A stretch of DNA of 64,000 nucleotides from Heliophilum fasciatum (GTDB lineage Bacteria; Bacillota; Desulfitobacteriia; Heliobacteriales; Heliobacteriaceae), in contig NZ_SLXT01000011.1 of the NCBI RefSeq assembly GCF_004341395.1, positions 1-64,000 of the forward strand, read 5' to 3'. Positions 27,990 through 38,219 of this stretch are shown piece by piece. The notes under the pieces were generated by a model that worked only from the letters and a program-made list of their open reading frames with translations, ran no database searches and was not told the origin of the DNA. Position 1 is the first letter of the stretch. Each line of letters begins with the position of its first letter. The position numbers and the translations under genes were made by a program.

Positions 27990-28367
27990 TCAATGTAAGG
28001 TTAATTGCAGCTTACGTACCTCTTCATAAGGCAATCCGGTAATCTTGACTACGAGTTCAGGCGGGAGGCCTTCTTTAAGTGCGTTCAGGGCATTTGTGTG
28101 CTGGGTCTGTTTTATCCCTTCTTCCCGCCCTTCTTCTCGCAACCATTTCTCAATATCGGTCATTCTCAGCACCTCCAATAACATTTTCTTGATGTGATCT
28201 GGGAGAATCTTATCAGTAATAGCAATAATGCTGGCGATACATAATCCCTGTGCTGGTCCTTGGACTTCTTTGGCGAGATAGGCCGCCTGGACGGCCAGTT
28301 CTTCTTCAGTAAATTGGTTGCTGCGCATCAAAGGAAGAAAAATGAGCTTAAGTATATTGTAGATCAC
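27990..28367 (-). CDS. C-terminal-domain-only copy of Rpn-family protein
   Basis: The frame of 125 residues starts with GTG (MIYNILKLIFLPLM) and ends PYEEVRKLQLTLH. It matches the last half of the full-length Rpn protein at 28544-29431 almost residue for residue, but lacks the PD-(D/E)XK nuclease domain entirely. Its charged linker has fewer REEG units. AAGG five bases before the GTG could be a ribosome site, partly inside the upstream palindrome. It may be a 5'-truncated pseudogene. Alternatively it may be a free-standing small protein like the intragenic RpnS inhibitors described for Rpn nucleases. Reading frame is intact, which favours expression or recent origin. Confidence 0.65.
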   Translation of the reverse strand: MIYNILKLIFLPLMRSNQFTEEELAVQAAYLAKEVQGPAQGLCIASIIAITDKILPDHIKKMLLEVLRMTDIEKWLREEGREEGIKQTQHTNALNALKEGLPPELVVKITGLPYEEVRKLQLTLH

Positions 28368-28543: not shown

Positions 28544-29431
28544 TCAATGTAAGGTTAATTGCAGCTTACGTACCTCTTCATAAGGCAATCCAGTAATCTT
28601 GACTACGAGTTCAGGCGGGAGGCCTTCTTTAAGTGCGTTCAGGGCATTTGTTTGCTGGGTCTGTTTTATCCCTTCTTCTCGCCCTTCTTCCCGCCCTTCT
28701 TCCCGCCCTTCTTCTCGTCCTTCTTCCCGCAACCATCTCTCAATATCGGTCATTCTGAGCACCTCCAATAACATTTTTTTGATGTGATCTGGGAGAATCT
28801 TATCAGTAATAGCAATAATGCTGGCGATACATAATCCCTGTGCTGGTCCTTGGACTTCTTTGGCGAGATAGGCCGCCTGGACGGCCAGTTCTTCTTCATT
28901 TAATTGGTTACTGCGCATCAGAGGAAGAAAAATGAGCTTCAGTATATCGTGCTCATCCAAGCCCACATGATTGTGAATTTTGTGTTGTAGCCGCTCCATT
29001 TCCAGGTCGCCATCAAAAGTGCGCATAAAGACATTGTCCACGCGATACGTAAGGGAGGACATTTCTAAAGTCGCCGGTGCTTCTTTGACATTACCAGCGT
29101 AAATCACGGCGGTGTGCACAGGTTTGCCGTGACGCTCGACGATTCGTGCCCCATAGAGAGCAATACGGCGCAGCAGTTCCGGCGGTGTGTTAACTTGAAA
29201 TTCCAGATGCAAAAGGCTGTCATCTTCCAAAAGAAAAACAAAATCGATCCTACGTTCTTTGGCTTCCACCATGGGCAACACTGTCGGCACTGCGCGAAGC
29301 ACGCGAGCGGTATGCAGCCCAAATACATCCAATGTCTTGTCCATAAACGTTTCGGCCATAAATTTCATGACGATGTCCTTGTTCTGATAGGCTACCTCAG
29401 TAGTTTGCACAGAATCTTCTGCCTGGGTCAT
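28544..29431 (-). CDS. Rpn-family recombination-promoting nuclease (PD-(D/E)XK)
   Basis: A 295-residue full-length member of the Rpn/transposase_31-like family. The nuclease core lies in about residues 15-160: RRIDFVFLLEDD with Asp63, then LLHLEFQ with Glu77 and Gln79, the D...ExQ version of the PD-(D/E)XK site, followed by ALYGARIVERHGKPVHTAVIY. The C-terminal part (about 165-295) is helical, contains five consecutive REEG units near 240-260, and ends KITGLPYEEVRKLQLTLH. Family members bind and cut DNA and some are phage-defence toxins held by a small protein made from their own 3' end. Two copies of just that 3' half flank it. GGAAGAAG precedes the ATG. Confidence 0.85.
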   Translation of the reverse strand: MTQAEDSVQTTEVAYQNKDIVMKFMAETFMDKTLDVFGLHTARVLRAVPTVLPMVEAKERRIDFVFLLEDDSLLHLEFQVNTPPELLRRIALYGARIVERHGKPVHTAVIYAGNVKEAPATLEMSSLTYRVDNVFMRTFDGDLEMERLQHKIHNHVGLDEHDILKLIFLPLMRSNQLNEEELAVQAAYLAKEVQGPAQGLCIASIIAITDKILPDHIKKMLLEVLRMTDIERWLREEGREEGREEGREEGREEGIKQTQQTNALNALKEGLPPELVVKITGLPYEEVRKLQLTLH

Positions 29432-29716: not shown

Positions 29717-30118
29717 TCAATGTAAGGTTAATTGCAGCTTACGTACCTCTTCATAAGGCAAACCGGTAATCTTGACTACGAGTTCAGGCGGGAGGCCTTC
29801 TTTAAGTGCGTTCAGGGCATTTGTGTGCTGGGTCTGTTTTATCCCTTCTTCCCGCCCTTCTTCTCGCCCTACTTGTCGTCCTTCTTCTCGCAACCATCTC
29901 TCAATATCGGTCATTCTCAGCACCTCCAATAACATTTTTTTGATGTGATCTGGGAGAATCTTATCAGTAATGGCAATAATGCTGGCGATACATAATCCTT
30001 GTATTGGTCCTTGGACTTCTTTGGCAAGATGAGCCGCCTGCACGGCCAGTTCTTCTTCAGTAAATTGGTTGCTGCGCATCAAAGGAAAAAAAATGAGCTT
30101 AAGCATATTGTAGATCAC
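29717..30118 (-). CDS. Second C-terminal-domain-only copy of Rpn-family protein
   Basis: A 133-residue frame starting with GTG (MIYNMLKLIFFPLM) at the same truncation point as the copy at 27990-28367. It differs from that copy at a handful of residues (for instance AAHLAKEVQGPIQG) and in the linker, which reads REEGRQVGREEGREEG. The nuclease domain is absent. Because both short copies share one 5' junction, they probably derive from one truncation that was later duplicated. Either a pseudogene or a small regulator of the full-length nuclease. Confidence 0.65.
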   Translation of the reverse strand: MIYNMLKLIFFPLMRSNQFTEEELAVQAAHLAKEVQGPIQGLCIASIIAITDKILPDHIKKMLLEVLRMTDIERWLREEGRQVGREEGREEGIKQTQHTNALNALKEGLPPELVVKITGLPYEEVRKLQLTLH

Positions 30119-30224: not shown

Positions 30225-30357
30225 CTTTTGCTTGGGAATGGCTATGGTTATGGTTATGGTGGTTACCGTTACCCTGTAGTTTCCGTTATTCCATGGAACG
30301 GGGATAGTGAGGCATGGGGTAGTTGGTCGGCATCCGGTACATGGGGCTGAGATCGCA
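30225..30357 (+). pseudogene. Possible remnant of a Gly/Tyr-rich small protein gene
   Basis: Directly after the last palindrome of the repeat block the plus strand reads, without a start codon, LLLGNGYGYGYGGYRYPVV and continues to a stop about 25 codons later. Such Gly-Tyr runs are common in small spore-coat-type proteins of Bacillota. No ribosome site or ATG is present, and part of the frame overlaps the 3' end of the opposite ferritin-like gene. It may be the tail of a gene cut by the repeat block, or chance. Confidence 0.25.
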
Positions 30358-31206
30358 AGGATCAGCCGGGCGCTGGGCGGGATAAAGATCACAAGGGTCA
30401 GCGATGGGACGGGGATAACTCTGGCGGGGGCGCGGTGCCGACCGTTTCGGGCTGATCCGCTCAGGCATGGGATGGCGCTCATGGGGCATGGGATGACATT
30501 CGTGCGGCATGGGATGACATTCGTGCGGCATGGGATGGCACTCGTGCGGCATGGGGTGGCACTCGTGCGGCATGGGGCGGCATTCTTGCGGCATGGGATG
30601 GCATTTTTCTTGTCGTTTCGGTCGGCACTCTTGGGGCTTATGGTGTTCGTGATGGCAGTGCTCTACCGGTTTGGGGCAAGCTTCCGGTGCAGGGTGGCAC
30701 TCCATCGGTTGCACCGGTAAGGGCTGCAGCGGCGCTGTCAACACCGGTTGAGGAACGCGGGGCGGGCAGCAACTTCCCTCGGCATCGCTGAGCAAGATCG
30801 GCATACGCATGGCATGTTTGGCTTCGTCGGTGCGGGTCATAAAAAAGAGGTTCTTGAGATGAGAATTGCATGCTTTCAGGTATTGTTCGCCATATTTTTT
30901 GTAGTCCGCTGTCTCGGCGATGATCCGTGCTTTCACGGCTTCGGTGAATTCCGGTACGCAGGGGTCGCAGACTGGTTTAGGGCAATAAGGGCAACCGGTA
31001 ATCATGCGATAGGCATCCATGAAACACTGGGCATGTAATGCTTCTTCGCGGCTGAATTCCATGAGCAGCTTGGCGGCTCGCGCTGTAGGGGCATTGGCTG
31101 CCATGATCGCGTAATAACGGCTGTCACAACGTTCGTCGTTGATGTATTCTTCAAGGTCACGAATCAAAGATTTTTTGCTGCTGCCGCAACAATTGGCGTT
31201 TTGCAC
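30286..31206 (-). CDS. Ferritin-like protein with His/Cys heptapeptide-repeat tail
   Basis: The protein has about 306 residues. Residues 10-150 form a four-helix ferritin/rubrerythrin-like domain: DLEEYINDERCDSRYYAIM and FSREEALHAQCF in the first half, FTEAVKARIIAETADYKKYG and TRTDEAKHAMRM in the second, giving two ExxH motifs as in diiron sites. A Cys-rich link (CPYCPKPVCDPCVP) joins the halves. The tail (about 180-306) is rich in His, Cys, Met and Pro, with consecutive HECHPMP-like heptads, and ends with two DPCDL motifs. GTG 31206 was chosen because AAAGGAG precedes it by about eleven bases. The tail suggests metal binding or a spore-coat role; no relative with known function comes to mind. 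Confidence 0.75.
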   Translation of the reverse strand: MQNANCCGSSKKSLIRDLEEYINDERCDSRYYAIMAANAPTARAAKLLMEFSREEALHAQCFMDAYRMITGCPYCPKPVCDPCVPEFTEAVKARIIAETADYKKYGEQYLKACNSHLKNLFFMTRTDEAKHAMRMPILLSDAEGSCCPPRVPQPVLTAPLQPLPVQPMECHPAPEACPKPVEHCHHEHHKPQECRPKRQEKCHPMPQECRPMPHECHPMPHECHPMPHECHPMPHECHPMPHERHPMPERISPKRSAPRPRQSYPRPIADPCDLYPAQRPADPCDLSPMYRMPTNYPMPHYPRSME

Positions 31207-31453
31207 GTGAATCCACGCTCCTTTGGGATGTTTGTTTGCTTTTCGCGATAACATATGGATGATGGGTGAAATGGGTGCCATAATTTGCCTTGATTCGGAT
31301 CTGTTTTTTGACTTCTTGTTTTTGAATATGCCGTTGCATCCGGATCTGGGAGCATCGAAAGTCTTCGCGTGGCAGGGTTTTTTTGCTATAATGAGCAAGA
31401 TCACCTTGCCAAAATTGATGTGTAATTTTTGATGTTGATAGGGGAGAGTTTAC

Positions 31454-32689: not shown

Positions 32690-33517
32690 ATGAAGATTGC
32701 CGTTGTTGGCAAAGGCGGTGTCGGCAAGACGACCCTTGCCGCTGCGCTGGCTCGTACCCTCGACCACCGGGGATATCAGGTAGTGGCGATTGATGCCGAT
32801 CCCGATGCGAATCTCGCCTCGGCACTACCCCTTGACGCCAATGAGCGCGAGAGGATTGTCCCTTTGGCCCAGCAAGGTGCTTTAATTGACGAAGCGCTGG
32901 GCGGAAAAGAACAACTTCGTGATGGCCTTGTACCCCTTAACCCCGATGTGCGCCCCTTGATTGAGCAACTGAGCGTCTCTTGGGGGCAAGGACAACGCTT
33001 GCTTACCTTAGGGTGGACCAAAGGTGGTGGACAAGGCTGTTATTGTAAAGAAAATGCCTTGTTAAGCCGTGTTCTCTCGGCAATTCCCTCCGGGTCCAAG
33101 GATGTTCTGTTGATTGACAGTGAAGCTGGGCTGGAGCACATGAGCCGTGGCACGATTCGCAAGATTGATGCGGTGATTGTTGTCTTGGAACCGGGGGCAC
33201 GCAGTGTGCAAACGGCCCGGGACCTGCACCGGTTAGCCCAAGACTTGCAAATTCCCAAGTGCTTGGCAGTGCTCAATCGTTGCCCATCTCCGGAGGAACG
33301 CGAAGAAGTGCAGCGGTATTTGCCCACTTGGCCCATCGTCGCCGCGTTTCCCGATGATCCTGCGATCCGTCGTGCTGATCTGCAAGGCAGTCTTCCTCCG
33401 CTGTCCGGTGCTTTTGGTGAAGGTGTAAAACAGATTTTGCAACAGTTGTTCCCTCCGGCGGACAATGCGCCGGTGGACAACGCACCGGAGAACAAGGAGG
33501 GTAGCCATCATGCATGA
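32690..33517 (+). CDS. cooC: CO dehydrogenase nickel-insertion ATPase CooC
   Basis: A 275-residue MinD/SIMIBI-class ATPase that helps load nickel into the C-cluster. The deviant Walker A VGKGGVGKTTLAAALA is at residues 6-21, DADPDANLASALP near 36, and a CYC pair (GGQGCYCKEN, about 116-118) matches the Cys-x-Cys that binds metal between CooC1 subunits. LLIDSEAGLEHMSRG is the Walker B/switch region. GTGGAGAAG precedes ATG 32690. The last eight bases overlap cooS, so the pair is translated together. A full CxC motif argues that the partner still receives a metal cluster. Confidence 0.92.
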   Translation: MKIAVVGKGGVGKTTLAAALARTLDHRGYQVVAIDADPDANLASALPLDANERERIVPLAQQGALIDEALGGKEQLRDGLVPLNPDVRPLIEQLSVSWGQGQRLLTLGWTKGGGQGCYCKENALLSRVLSAIPSGSKDVLLIDSEAGLEHMSRGTIRKIDAVIVVLEPGARSVQTARDLHRLAQDLQIPKCLAVLNRCPSPEEREEVQRYLPTWPIVAAFPDDPAIRRADLQGSLPPLSGAFGEGVKQILQQLFPPADNAPVDNAPENKEGSHHA

Positions 33518-35552
33518 TCCACAAGAGTTGAATGAATATCGTCGTACCTTCCCGTCAACGCAACAAGTGCTGGAGGAAACGCCTGATCCCGGTGTGCGGG
33601 CGATGCTCCGTCATTTTGCGGACCAAGGATTGGAAACTACCTTTGATCGTTTTGATGCACAAAAACCGCAATGTACTTTTGGACTTGCCGGCACGTGCTG
33701 CCGCAATTGTAATATGGGACCTTGTAAAATCACACCGAAAAGCCCACGCGGTGTTTGTGGCGCCGATGCTGACTTGATCGTGGCCCGCAATTTTTTGCGT
33801 TGGGTCGCCGCCGGTGTCTCTGCCCATGGTGCTCGTGGGCGGGAAGTCATGTTGGCGCTGAAAGGCGCTGCTGAAGGAACGATTCCGCTGCCGATCCGGG
33901 GACCGGAAAAAGTGCGTGCCGTAGCCAAAGCGTTGGGGATCACGGCAGATAGGCAAAATCATGAACGCCAGGATCGGCAAGGTCAGCATCAAGCGGGCCA
34001 TGATCAACAACCCCGGAATCTGCAAAGCCTGACTGGATCGGATGATCAAGAACCTTCTACTGAGGAGCTTCAAGCCGAAATCCGCTCACTGGCCGCGCAA
34101 ATTGCCGATGTGCTGCTGGAAGATCTTTCGCGGACCGTTCCCGGTGAACATAAAACCTTGGCGGCCATGGCGCCGCCCGAACGGATCGCGACTTGGCGTG
34201 ATTTAGATATCCTGCCGATCGGTGCCTATCACGAAGTGTTTGAAGCGCTCCATCGTACGGGAACCGGTACTGATGGCGATTGGGAAAACATCGCCCGACA
34301 AATCTTGCGCTGTGGTCTGGCTTTTGCTTGGTCCAGTGTCCTCGGTTCGTCGATTGCGATGGACAGCTTGTACGGTCCGCCCCAACGCCAGCGCATCAGC
34401 GCCAATTTCGGCTCTCTCAAGCCGGAGTACGTCAACATCGCGATCCACGGTCATTCTCCGGTGATGGCCTCAGCGATTGTACAGGCCGCTGAATCGCCGG
34501 AAGCCATCGCCCGTGCCCGTGAACTGGGGGCCGCCGGCATTCGCCTCTATGGCATCTGCTGTTCGGGATTGTCCAGCTTGTACCGTTATGGCCAAGTGCA
34601 CCCCTTAAGCAATGCCATCGGTGCCGAACTGGTCATGGGCACGGGAGCGCTTGATCTCTGGGTCGCCGATATTCAAGACGTTTTTCCCAGCATCATGAAT
34701 GTGGCCGCTTGTTTCCATACCAAAGTCGTGACGACCCATGATGCAGGGCGGTTACCGGGCGCGATACATATTGGTTTTGATCATCACCATCGTAATCTGA
34801 ACAAAGTCGAAGCAATGGCTGCCCAAATTGTCGGGCTGGCGATCGAAAATTACCCCCGCCGCAAGGAAGGCAATGTGTTTATTCCGGAGACATCCATCGA
34901 TGCGGAAATCGGTTTTTCCGTGGAGAATGCATTGCCCCTCTTTGGCGGCCCGCAAGGATTATGGCAGTTGATTGACTCCGGTCAGATCCGGGGAATTGTC
35001 AACTTGGTCGGCTGTAACAACCCCAAAGTGATATATGAAAAGACGATCACCGATGTGGCTGATATTTTACTGGCTAATGATATTTTGATTCTCACCAACG
35101 GCTGTGCTTCTTTCCCGCTCTTGAAGCTGGGCTACTGCCATCCTGACGCGTTGGCGCAAAAAGCCGGCCCTGGTCTGCGCCAAGCACTGGAAGCGCATGG
35201 ACTTCCGCCGGTCTGGCACATGGGCGAATGCCTCGACAATGCCCGAGCATCAGCGCTCTTCCGTGCCGTCGCCGATGCGGCAGGAAGACCATTAAAAGCG
35301 ATGCCCTTCGCTTTTTCCAGCCCCGAATGGTCGAACGAAAAAGGTGCTGGTGCTTCGTTAAGCTTCCGGTTGCTGGGATTGAATTCCTACCACTGTGTGC
35401 CGGCGCCGCTCTTTGGCTCGCCCAATGTACGGAAGTTTTTTGAGCATGATACGGAAGCGCTGTTAGGTTCGGTCATGGTTGTTGATCCTGATCCACGCCG
35501 ACTTGGTGAGCGGATAGTGGCGGATCTGGAGAAGCGGCGAAGTCAAAAATAG
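33510..35552 (+). CDS. cooS: Ni-CO dehydrogenase-family protein CooS with altered C-cluster ligand
   Basis: A 680-residue catalytic subunit homologue of the anaerobic CO dehydrogenases. The N-terminal cluster motif CTFGLAGTCCRNCNMGPC with a further Cys in GVCGAD (Cys55, 63, 64, 67, 72, 83) is complete for clusters D and B. Of the C-cluster ligands, His315 (IHGHSP), Cys351 (GICCSG), Cys502 (VGCNNPK), Cys532 (NGCASF) and Cys574 (GECLDN) are present, as are His106 and Lys611. In the motif usually ending Asp-x-Gln-Cys it has ADIQDVFPS, so Asp390 replaces the cysteine. A Gln/His/Asp-rich insertion spans about residues 146-185. ATG 33510 with AAGGAGGG upstream overlaps cooC. True CO oxidation is therefore uncertain. 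Confidence 0.88.
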   Translation: MHDPQELNEYRRTFPSTQQVLEETPDPGVRAMLRHFADQGLETTFDRFDAQKPQCTFGLAGTCCRNCNMGPCKITPKSPRGVCGADADLIVARNFLRWVAAGVSAHGARGREVMLALKGAAEGTIPLPIRGPEKVRAVAKALGITADRQNHERQDRQGQHQAGHDQQPRNLQSLTGSDDQEPSTEELQAEIRSLAAQIADVLLEDLSRTVPGEHKTLAAMAPPERIATWRDLDILPIGAYHEVFEALHRTGTGTDGDWENIARQILRCGLAFAWSSVLGSSIAMDSLYGPPQRQRISANFGSLKPEYVNIAIHGHSPVMASAIVQAAESPEAIARARELGAAGIRLYGICCSGLSSLYRYGQVHPLSNAIGAELVMGTGALDLWVADIQDVFPSIMNVAACFHTKVVTTHDAGRLPGAIHIGFDHHHRNLNKVEAMAAQIVGLAIENYPRRKEGNVFIPETSIDAEIGFSVENALPLFGGPQGLWQLIDSGQIRGIVNLVGCNNPKVIYEKTITDVADILLANDILILTNGCASFPLLKLGYCHPDALAQKAGPGLRQALEAHGLPPVWHMGECLDNARASALFRAVADAAGRPLKAMPFAFSSPEWSNEKGAGASLSFRLLGLNSYHCVPAPLFGSPNVRKFFEHDTEALLGSVMVVDPDPRRLGERIVADLEKRRSQK

Positions 35553-35646
35553 AAGCGAAGAATACAAAGAGATTCGCTGCTTTCAAATTAGGTTAAGGAT
35601 ACCTACGGGGCAACGGAGACAAGTGTGAGAAGAGAGGGCGGTTAAT

Positions 35647-36654
35647 TTGTTTCAGGTCATCATGAATCGTCGGGAGTTAATTAAAACCGGTCTATGGACG
35701 ATGACGGCCGGTGCAGCGCTGATGGCCGCTGGCTGCGGTTCATCGAATTCACAGACCCTATCCGGCAGCGGTGCCGGTGCCAATAAGCCGAAGCTGAAAA
35801 TCGGCTACCTGCCGATTACGGATCACTTGACCGTCATCGGCTTGGATCAGCATCAATTTACCCATAGCCAAGTGGAAGCGGTGAAATTCTCCAACTGGGC
35901 CGAGATCGCCGAAGCAATCAAAGCCGGTGCTATTCAAGGTGCTTTTTTACTGACGCCCATCGGGCTTACGTTACGGCAAAAAGGGGTACCGCTGAAAGCC
36001 GTCATGTTGGGACATCGCAATGGTTCGGTGCTGACCGTGAAAAAAGGCGATGGTGCCCAAAAAATTGAGGACTTGCGCGGTAAAACCGTAGCGATTCCCA
36101 GTCGCTTTTCCACGCACCACATCTTGATCCGCAAAGCCTTGGCCGATCGCGGTGTGGCCGCTTCGGAAGTGAAATTGCTCGACATGGCGCCGCCGGAAAT
36201 GGTCAATGCCTTGGCGACGGGCCGGATCGATGCGTTTATCGTGGCTGAACCCTTTGGCGGTCAAGCGGAACTGCAAGGTCATGGACAAGTGCTGACCTTG
36301 TCCAAAGATTTATGGCCCGATCACATCTGCTGCGCCTTAAATATTCAGGAATCGGTGCTGCAGCAACACCCGGAGGCCGTTACCGAACTGGTCGGTAATC
36401 TGCAAAAAGCCGGCGCTTTTATCGATGCCAACCCGGAAGAAGCGAGCAAGCTGTCGGTGAAGTATTTAGGTCAAAAAAAGGAAGTCATTACCCATGTATT
36501 GACCCAACCACGCGGGCGGGTAACCTTTAATCAATTGGCACCGGCATTGTCTGATTTTACGGCAACGCAAGATTACATGCTTCAGTTTGGGATTACGACG
36601 GAAAAGGTGGATTTGGCTCAGTATGTGGACAATCAATTTGCGAGCGCAACTTGA
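35647..36654 (+). CDS. ABC importer substrate-binding lipoprotein (NitT/TauT type)
   Basis: A protein of about 335 residues of the NMT1/SsuA/TauA family. The N-terminus has NRRELIKTG, a twin-arginine-like motif, a hydrophobic core and the lipobox MAAGC, so it is probably exported folded or by Sec and then lipidated by Lgt. The mature part has KIGYLPITDHLTVIG, TPIGLTLRQKGVPLKAVMLG, and RIDAFIVAEPFGGQAEL, typical of this family. TTG 35647 follows GAGAGGGCGG by six bases; ATG 35662 is the alternative. The permease begins inside its 3' end. The substrate cannot be read from sequence; linkage to cooS suggests a link to that enzyme. Confidence 0.9.
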   Translation: MFQVIMNRRELIKTGLWTMTAGAALMAAGCGSSNSQTLSGSGAGANKPKLKIGYLPITDHLTVIGLDQHQFTHSQVEAVKFSNWAEIAEAIKAGAIQGAFLLTPIGLTLRQKGVPLKAVMLGHRNGSVLTVKKGDGAQKIEDLRGKTVAIPSRFSTHHILIRKALADRGVAASEVKLLDMAPPEMVNALATGRIDAFIVAEPFGGQAELQGHGQVLTLSKDLWPDHICCALNIQESVLQQHPEAVTELVGNLQKAGAFIDANPEEASKLSVKYLGQKKEVITHVLTQPRGRVTFNQLAPALSDFTATQDYMLQFGITTEKVDLAQYVDNQFASAT

Positions 36655-37396
36655 CGGCTGGCTAGCCTTTTTGCTGGTGCTTTTGCTATGGACGGGAGTG
36701 GCCGGATTCTATACGCCGGAGCAGTTGCCGTCACCGCTCGATGTGCTGAAAGCGTTTCCTGAGCTTTGGGAAGCCGATATGCTCGGCAAGCATATCCTGG
36801 TGAGCATGGGGCGTTTTCTCACGGCCTACGGGTTGGCAGTGGTCATCGGGATTCCACTGGGACTTTGGATGGGCTGGGTAACACGGGCGCGGCAGGCCCT
36901 TGATCCGATCATCCAGTTTCTACGGCCCATTTCACCGATCGCTTGGTTTCCTTTGGCTGTGCTTTGGTTTGGTATCGGCAATGCACCGGCAGTGTTTATC
37001 ATTTTCTTAGCCGCTTTTTTTCCGGTGGTGGTGACGACGGTCAGCGCTGTCCGTCAGGTCAATCCCCTTTATTTAAAAGTGGCCTATGATTTTGGCGCCG
37101 GTCCCTTGATGGTTTTTCGGCAAGTGGTGCTGCCGGCCGCTTTTCCGCAGATGATGAATGGCTTACATATTGCTGTTGGGACGGCTTGGATTCATCTGGT
37201 CGCCGGTGAAATGCTTGGCGCCCAAAGCGGCCTGGGGTATTTTATTGTCGATTCACGCAACTTCTTGCGTACTGATTGGATCATCGCCGGCATGATCATG
37301 GTCGGGGCGATTGGCTTGATCATCAATCGCTTGATGCGCACTGCGGAGCGCTGGATCTATCGCCAGTGGGGACAGGAGGCAGGTAGTCATGAATAA
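36623..37396 (+). CDS. ABC importer permease (SsuC/TauC type)
   Basis: A 257-residue inner-membrane permease with six hydrophobic segments. It shows STGRFLTAYGLAVVIGIPLG-like sequence near 60-80 (here SMGRFLTAYG), the RPISPIAWFPLAVLWFGIG motif near 103-121, and the cytoplasmic EAA-type loop DFGAGPLMVFRQVVLPAAFP near 155-174 that contacts the ATPase. ATG 36623 was chosen (AAAAGGTGG twelve bases upstream); it lies inside the binding-protein gene. The ATPase gene overlaps its end by eight bases. Confidence 0.9.
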   Translation: MWTINLRAQLDGWLAFLLVLLLWTGVAGFYTPEQLPSPLDVLKAFPELWEADMLGKHILVSMGRFLTAYGLAVVIGIPLGLWMGWVTRARQALDPIIQFLRPISPIAWFPLAVLWFGIGNAPAVFIIFLAAFFPVVVTTVSAVRQVNPLYLKVAYDFGAGPLMVFRQVVLPAAFPQMMNGLHIAVGTAWIHLVAGEMLGAQSGLGYFIVDSRNFLRTDWIIAGMIMVGAIGLIINRLMRTAERWIYRQWGQEAGSHE

Positions 37397-38219
37397 TGTA
37401 AAAAAAGTTTCTCCTGAGGCGGAACTGGATCCACGTTCGCGTGACTTGGTGTTTCAAATGCGCGGCGTCAGTAAATCCTTCCCTACGCCGGAAGGGCCTT
37501 TGCGGTTAGTCCTGGACGATGTGAATCTGGATATCCAGCAAGGCGAATTTGTTTGCCTCTTAGGTCCCAGTGGCTGCGGCAAGACCACCGTAATGAATCT
37601 GTTGGCACGGTTTATTACCCCTACATCGGGAACGTTGCTGGTCCATGGCGAACCGTTGGTCGCGCCGAACCCGAAGCATGTGACCATTTTCCAAGAACAT
37701 GGCCTTTTTCCCTGGCGGACCGTGATCGACAATGTGGCCTTTGGCGTGCAGGCGCAAGGGGCAAGCAAAAGCGATGCCCGCGAAAAAGCGATAAAATACT
37801 TAGAACTGGTCGGGTTACAGGAAGTGGCCACCTTGTTTCCGCATCAGTTGTCCGGTGGGATGCGGCAGCGTGTGGCCATTGCGCGGGCGCTGGCGGTGGA
37901 ACCGGAAGTGATCTTTATGGATGAGCCGTTTTCGGCGCTCGATGCTTTTACGCGCTACCGTTTGCAAGATGAGATGTTGCGCATCTGGCAAGATCAGAAA
38001 ACAACGATTATTTTTGTAACTCATGATATTGATGAAGCGGTGTATTTGGGCCAAAAAGTGGTGGTCATGGCACCGAATCCGGGGCGGATTGAAATGGTCT
38101 TGCCGATGAATATCGCTCGCCCTTGTGAACGGACGGACAGCCAGTTTCTCTATTATCGCCGTGAAATTTTCAAAGCTTTTCAATTGGTTCATGAGTGGGC
38201 ACCGGAATATGCCATTTAG
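37389..38219 (+). CDS. ABC importer ATP-binding protein (SsuB/TauB type)
   Basis: A 276-residue ATPase. Walker A GPSGCGKTTVMNLLA is near residue 58, the Q loop FQEHGLFPW near 97, the signature LSGGMRQRVAIARAL near 155, Walker B VIFMDEPFSALD near 175 and the switch histidine in TTIIFVTHDIDEA near 208. The arrangement is that of nitrate/sulfonate/taurine importers. GGACAGGAGG precedes ATG 37389, which overlaps the permease. It closes the cooC-cooS-importer group; a terminator follows at 38300. Confidence 0.93.
   Translation: MNNVKKVSPEAELDPRSRDLVFQMRGVSKSFPTPEGPLRLVLDDVNLDIQQGEFVCLLGPSGCGKTTVMNLLARFITPTSGTLLVHGEPLVAPNPKHVTIFQEHGLFPWRTVIDNVAFGVQAQGASKSDAREKAIKYLELVGLQEVATLFPHQLSGGMRQRVAIARALAVEPEVIFMDEPFSALDAFTRYRLQDEMLRIWQDQKTTIIFVTHDIDEAVYLGQKVVVMAPNPGRIEMVLPMNIARPCERTDSQFLYYRREIFKAFQLVHEWAPEYAI

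Follow-up and report, generated by a model that had tools for sequence, protein, structure and literature searches.

Why would a ferritin-like protein carry a tail built of HECHPMP heptads, and where in the cell might such a protein work? These questions are raised by a gene for a 306-residue protein in the window analysed here, a 64,000-nucleotide stretch of Heliophilum fasciatum contig NZ_SLXT01000011.1. The features of the locus, all on the minus strand, are collected in Table 1.

Results

The gene and its start

The minus-strand open frame that contains the gene is longer than the gene itself, extending to 31404, past the GTG at 31206 that the first-pass annotation had taken as the start of a frame running to 30286. 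That choice stands: GTG 31206 is the best-supported start, since AAAGGAG stands 11 bases ahead of it and a promoter-like site (31277-31249) falls inside the longer frame. A sigma-A type promoter was looked for upstream of the gene on the minus strand and none was found, nor was a minus-strand terminator called for it.

Table 1. Features of the locus, with positions in the window
Feature	Position	Strand	Basis or remark
Sigma-K-type promoter-like site, CACC-N16-CATATGTTA	31249..31277	minus	-10 begins 51 bases before the start codon
Ribosome-binding-site-like AAAGGAG	31218..31224	minus	11 bases 5' of GTG 31206; no other good ribosome-binding site found
Coding sequence, 306 aa + stop, GTG start: ferritin-like domain and Pro/His/Cys/Met-rich tail	30286..31206	minus	ORF list, Pfam
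Ferritin-like (rubrerythrin-superfamily) domain, residues 14-141	30784..31167	minus	PF02915, AlphaFold, alignment
Loop CPYC-PKPV-CDPC (four Cys), between helices 2 and 3	30958..30993	minus	alignment with the four closest relatives
165-aa tail, predicted disordered	30289..30783	minus	pLDDT mostly under 55, no secondary structure in the AlphaFold model
Seven in-register heptads, 21-base DNA repeat	30463..30609	minus	translation, TRF

A ferritin-like domain with a complete di-metal site

The description of the N-terminal part as ferritin-like held up in a domain search, in the AlphaFold model, which is a four-helix bundle, and in structural comparison. The protein matches the Pfam Rubrerythrin profile, PF02915, at 27.7 bits (curated cut-off 22.8), and this is the sole Pfam family matched at E up to 10; an NCBIfam profile search of the protein gave no match. 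When PF02915 was used to search the organism's own genome it found seven other proteins, and a first pass missed the 306-residue protein itself. The four main helices are modelled with pLDDT of about 85-96 for helices 1 and 2 and mostly 77-89 for helices 3 and 4, and the nearest solved folds by VIA-align are the Dps-like PA4880 (Z 17.4), nigerythrin (Z 17.0) and bacterioferritins (Z about 16), with 128-150 residues aligned at 7-20% identity. Foldseek E-values for the model are weak (best 3.3e-3), perhaps because disorder covers more than half of it. With the domain alone, phmmer had no match in the PDB (E up to 1); distant ferritin-like chains came up with profile A2, the best being 9viw_A at 5e-8.

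Both of the ExxH motifs seen at first reading are present in the domain and, with one further Glu each from helices 1 and 3, they make up a complete di-metal ligand set of the form 2 x (Glu + ExxH): E25, E55, H58, E98, E128 and H131. For comparison, 76 loci of the family were assembled and 73 counted, after L077 and L015 had been dropped as near-duplicates of L076 and L016, and L054 as having no start. The six ligand columns, in the order just given, are kept in 69, 72, 73, 72, 72 and 72 of the 73 members, which amounts to a consistency check and not to independent proof, as the profile used to collect the family already contains these residues.

Two other identities were considered and rejected: a manganese catalase of the CotJC kind, since there is no Mn_catalase profile match at E up to 10, and a Csp copper storage protein, since the protein has no DUF326 match. 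Nor did Pfam, searched up to E 10, give a rubredoxin domain match; the four-Cys loop between helices 2 and 3 is present without such a match. This last result bears on the idea of a cytosolic, vegetative rubrerythrin-like protein that handles peroxide or iron and trails an expanding junk repeat. The superfamily to which the domain belongs speaks for that idea, and the lack of a rubredoxin match speaks against it; taken together with the evidence on the repeat and the promoter given below, we regard it as quite unlikely.

The domain is also unusual in its cysteines. Each of the four closest relatives has at most one Cys in the helix 2-3 loop, compared with four here; the globular domain contains seven, the highest number among the 73 members (median 1); and the whole protein contains 23, the next-highest member having 7.

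The heptad tail

The tail of 165 residues contains 42 Pro, 18 His, 14 Cys and 12 Met. Its heptads read, in order, EKCHPMP, QECRPMP, HECHPMP four times and HERHPMP, so that the repeat reported in the first-pass annotation is real, although its count of at least five near-identical HECHPMP-type heptads becomes four exact copies and three variants. At the DNA level, TRF reports the 21-base repeat at 30464-30605 with 6.8 copies and a score of 200. When the tail was shuffled 20,000 times, four copies of any heptad were never reached, the most being three, in seven shuffles. Among the four exact copies the DNA varies in four columns, all four at third codon positions and all silent; the protein sequence of the repeat therefore appears to be held constant, with the qualification that four copies have little statistical power. 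This pattern argues against a junk repeat on a vegetative protein, for which it can be said that short tandem repeats expand easily and that no second genome with the tail turned up in the searches made.

Such a tail may bind metal and/or cross-link the coat. An alternative is that it is mainly structural, a Pro-rich, Cys-containing low-complexity polymer linked by disulfides and having no specific role with metal. The raised Cys content of the globular domain (seven, as noted, against a family median of one) would fit this, as would the Tyr/Pro/Gly-rich segments, poor in His and Cys, that relatives carry instead of the tail. Against it, a set of metal ligands (His, Cys, His, Met) stays together in every exact copy, and the DNA of these copies differs only silently. 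We would call the purely structural role a real possibility, though not the one on which we would settle. Tyrosine, of which the tail has five, gives at most a weak Tyr-rich coat signature in this protein, a point against placing it in the coat.

Distribution of the tail and of the domain

Among 84,980 named genomes, scanned in a way that reaches close relatives only, four relatives of the domain were found with 61-63% identity over the ferritin-like part: Peptococcaceae bacterium BRH_c4b (L013), Bacillota SKS1.bin35 (L014), Clostridia ZC4RG12 (L015) and Caldicoprobacter oshimai (L016). The His/Cys/Met tail is absent from all four, and two of the proteins, those of ZC4RG12 and Caldicoprobacter, are instead extended at the N-terminus by a Tyr-rich segment. 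Loss of the repeat in close relatives, which the first-pass annotation had named as an outcome that would tell against it, is thus seen in part, in the closest relatives of the domain. A search of 21 genomes with the tail alone returned the window gene and one other frame (L049), with no other carrier of the tail; the second match is an unrelated-looking Pro/Ala-rich frame of 71 residues (E 3.5e-4) and was judged to be due to chance.

The domain type itself was found in 1 of 82 genomes of the class at E 1e-15, that one being the genome of the window, in 23 of 398 genomes of an even draw of the phylum with profile A1, and in 69 of 398 with the broader profile A2 at 1e-12 (phylum draw, completeness at least 90). 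Its distribution is patchy, through loss or transfer. A tblastn search of plasmids found one ferritin-like protein, 29% identical, in a Vescimonas record.

Extensions across the family

Extensions of at least 20 residues are carried by 44 of the 73 members, and in 25 of the 73 such an extension is rich in His/Cys/Met (7) or in Tyr/Pro/Gly (19) by thresholds that we set ourselves. Domain stretches of the same length, taken as a control, pass at rates of 0.047 for His/Cys/Met and 0.016 for Tyr/Pro/Gly per extension; over 49 extensions about two and one would be expected, so that the excess is strong for Tyr/Pro/Gly and modest for His/Cys/Met. Since start codons were picked by an automatic rule, some N-terminal lengths may be wrong, and the 94-residue N-terminal extension of the BRH_c4b protein is doubtful for this reason. 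Examples include His-rich N-termini in L010 (G005) and L102 (G001), both from genomes of the window's own taxonomic family, a Met-Pro repeat in L079 and Gly-Tyr-Pro repeats in L073 and L053. None of the other members among the 73 is as long as the window protein. As relatives often have other low-complexity extensions, tail swapping looks common. The remark in the first-pass annotation that no protein of this build had been described survives, in the searches made, for the exact tail; it does not survive for the general build, which recurs in the family.

Several other architectures were seen. A second ferritin-like protein of the same genome (L046, C17:60893-61282) has an N-terminal PEHHHPMGKY segment. 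Three members (L007, L009 and L011) join the ferritin-like domain to an N-terminal part that we take to be LysM-like, possibly a variant anchored in cortex or coat. In L080 (G440) the domain is followed by a 138-residue C-terminal segment, presumably a cupin, and L089, L094 and L099 have C-terminal segments of 70-100 residues that are unlike the low-complexity tails, those of L094 and L099 resembling each other.

A sigma-K-type promoter-like site

The organism's genome encodes both sigma-K (TIGR02846, 347.7 bits against a cut-off of 298.65) and SpoIVA (PF09547, E 3.4e-118). The letters of the sigma-K logo themselves, beyond the sizes of the elements and the gap between them, are taken here as general background. 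At its spacing, the CACC-N16-CATATGTTA site is the sole match in the 64-kb window (mean of shuffles 0.27). Across the genome the exact pattern has 15 matches compared with 11 for a reversed control, so that alone it is not specific, and for this reason the upstream regions of the family were tested and weight is placed on the position of the site and on enrichment in the family. The strict site occurs in 9 of 73 family upstreams (200 shuffles, mean 0.14, maximum 2), AC-N17/18-CATAnnnTA in 15 of 73 (shuffled mean 0.43, maximum 3) and CATAnnnTA in 33 of 73 (shuffled mean 4.72, maximum 10); two permuted control motifs, with 6 and 5 of 73 and means of 4.33 and 4.36, are at background. An earlier set had CATAnnnTA in 10 of its 26 family upstreams, compared with 7 of 137 for the other ORFs of those loci; the sets of 26 and 73 overlap and contain related genomes. 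The strict site is missing upstream of the four closest relatives, L014/L050 having just a -10-like CATATTTTA, and this counts against a conserved promoter in the subclade of the window protein.

The bclA promoter of B. thuringiensis, shown to depend on sigK, has the form CAC-N16-CATATGTTA (PMC4750369), and its -10 is the same as that of the window gene. Sigma-K promoters are described as a 5-nt and a 10-nt element separated by 14-16 nt (PMC517825), a layout that the block sizes and spacing of the window site fit. The promoter-like site and its enrichment in the family are further points against a vegetative protein.

Relation to YhjR and other spore proteins

B. subtilis YhjR is reported to be an inner coat protein, regulated by SigK and encoded in an operon with Csp3 (yhjQ) (PMC9484137); its gene is listed among spore coat genes (PMC3533761) and its peptides among spore proteins (PMC8005191), and it is described as a coat/crust component of unknown function (PMC11736430). 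One family relative, L116, and no other, has a Cys-rich, Csp-like ORF beside it: a DUF326 match (57.2 bits) follows it directly in the same orientation, and because of this arrangement L116 is probably of the YhjR type, with the two genes (minus strand, about 970-1770 of the reverse complement) a likely yhjR-yhjQ pair. In a tree of 126 columns with many weak forks, the clade of L116 also holds L010 and L102, the window protein falls outside it with modest support, and the clade of the window protein contains three of its four closest relatives (L015 having been left out as a near-duplicate). Placed in this way through L116 and not by alignment of a YhjR sequence, YhjR probably belongs to a branch neighbouring that of the window protein.

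By the same route through L116, YhjR and the window protein would share a broad ferritin-like family, and the two genes have a sigma-K-type promoter in common, which for the window gene is a sequence match. They differ in that the window protein sits in another subclade and carries the 165-residue His/Cys/Met tail, and in that the list of genes around it, unlike the surroundings of the YhjR type, shows nothing Csp-like. L010 and L102, as the window protein does, combine a ferritin-like domain with an extension rich in metal ligands, and they have a -10-like CATACAATA upstream; their His-rich segment is N-terminal, however, and lacks Cys/Met heptads.

Rubrerythrins associated with spores have been reported from M. 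thermoacetica, C. sordellii and C. difficile (PMC8745062, PMC5927469, PMC3789822), those of C. difficile and M. thermoacetica being placed in the spore or exosporium (PMC8745062). They have the ferritin-like di-metal domain in common with the window protein, which differs in its tail and in giving no rubredoxin match. Csp3, too, is a Cys-rich four-helix bundle linked to the B. subtilis spore coat (PMC9484137), but in Csp proteins the cysteines line the core of the bundle, whereas in the window protein the core holds Glu and His ligands and most cysteines are in the tail and loops. A search of the literature for a ferritin-like spore-coat protein with a histidine-rich metal-binding tail found none, as judged partly by title.

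The suggestion of a spore coat made in the first-pass annotation has thus gained ground from the sigma-K-type promoter, the presence of sigK and spoIVA, the promoter enrichment in the family and the literature link by way of YhjR, and on these sequence-level grounds the predicted assignment of the protein to the spore coat is well supported. The HECHPMP tail looks new; the general build behind it, a coat-type ferritin-like domain plus some low-complexity extension, does not.

Gene neighbourhood

CooJ is a protein with a His-rich tail and a role with nickel, and the surroundings of the gene raise the thought that its tail might similarly act as a store or chaperone of nickel (or another metal) feeding a CooS-type CO dehydrogenase encoded 2.3 kb away. 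An ATPase with matches to P-loop families (32690-33517), which we take to be CooC-like, and a Prismane/CO dehydrogenase protein (33465-35552) are indeed nearby, and His and Cys abound in the tail. The gene is nevertheless transcribed divergently from this cluster, with a nitronate-monooxygenase-family gene between, and so lies outside a coo operon, the ground on which a CooJ-type nickel chaperone was rejected; this arrangement also weakens the CO dehydrogenase link in general, leaving proximity as its sole basis. Moreover, no CO dehydrogenase genes are apparent around L013, L014 and L016, where ORFs read by eye revealed no visible conservation of the gene neighbourhood, and the site upstream of the window gene is of sporulation type. 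We consider a role in supplying the dehydrogenase quite unlikely.

Two other features of the neighbourhood may be recorded. An NMT1-type ABC transporter (35647-38219) comes after the CooC-like ATPase and CO dehydrogenase genes; the whole group occupies 32690-38219 and is unusual as a pairing. Beside the gene, at 27990-28367, 28544-29431 and 29717-30118, are one full-length and two truncated copies of one protein, presumably an Rpn-type transposase/nuclease from its look (it has no Pfam match), the full-length copy having GREE-type 12-base repeats in its tail.

Discussion

From the gene, the domain with its ligands, the repeat, the promoter-like site, the sporulation genes and the enrichment among relatives, we infer a location in the coat, metal binding, cross-linking and catalysis, and the reading that we favour, and believe to be probable, is that of a late mother-cell, sigma-K-controlled di-metal protein of the spore coat whose tail has turned into a metal-binding and/or cross-linking segment. 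In the evolutionary and mechanistic scheme that this suggests, sigma-K would switch the gene on in the mother cell at a late stage of sporulation, and its product would be laid into the spore coat. There, at the surface of the spore, the conserved four-helix centre, diiron or dimanganese, might oxidise Fe(II) or Mn(II) or might reduce peroxide. The N- and C-terminal segments would be the fast-changing part of the family, the C-terminus having become, in this case, a Pro-spaced His/Cys/Met tail which, together with the extra cysteines of the domain, could hold several soft or borderline metal ions. Cross-links through disulfides and/or metal bridges would then fix the protein in the coat and load the coat with metal.

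It is tempting to go further and to picture a self-sufficient metal-loading and cross-linking coat protein, whose ferritin-like centre oxidises metal or burns peroxide while its own flexible HECHPMP tail, lying next to that centre, captures the ions and so becomes bridged oxidatively into the coat; the family as a whole would then be one of coat di-metal oxidases, each having as substrate its own swappable tail, Tyr in some species and Cys/His/Met here. This extended version we put forward as speculation that is rather unlikely to be right in full. Linking an intact di-metal site to sigma-K-type promoters and to swappable extensions across the family provides a direct hypothesis for the function of YhjR-type proteins, of which the HECHPMP tail would be the extreme case, one open to measurement of metal binding and cross-linking on a synthetic peptide.
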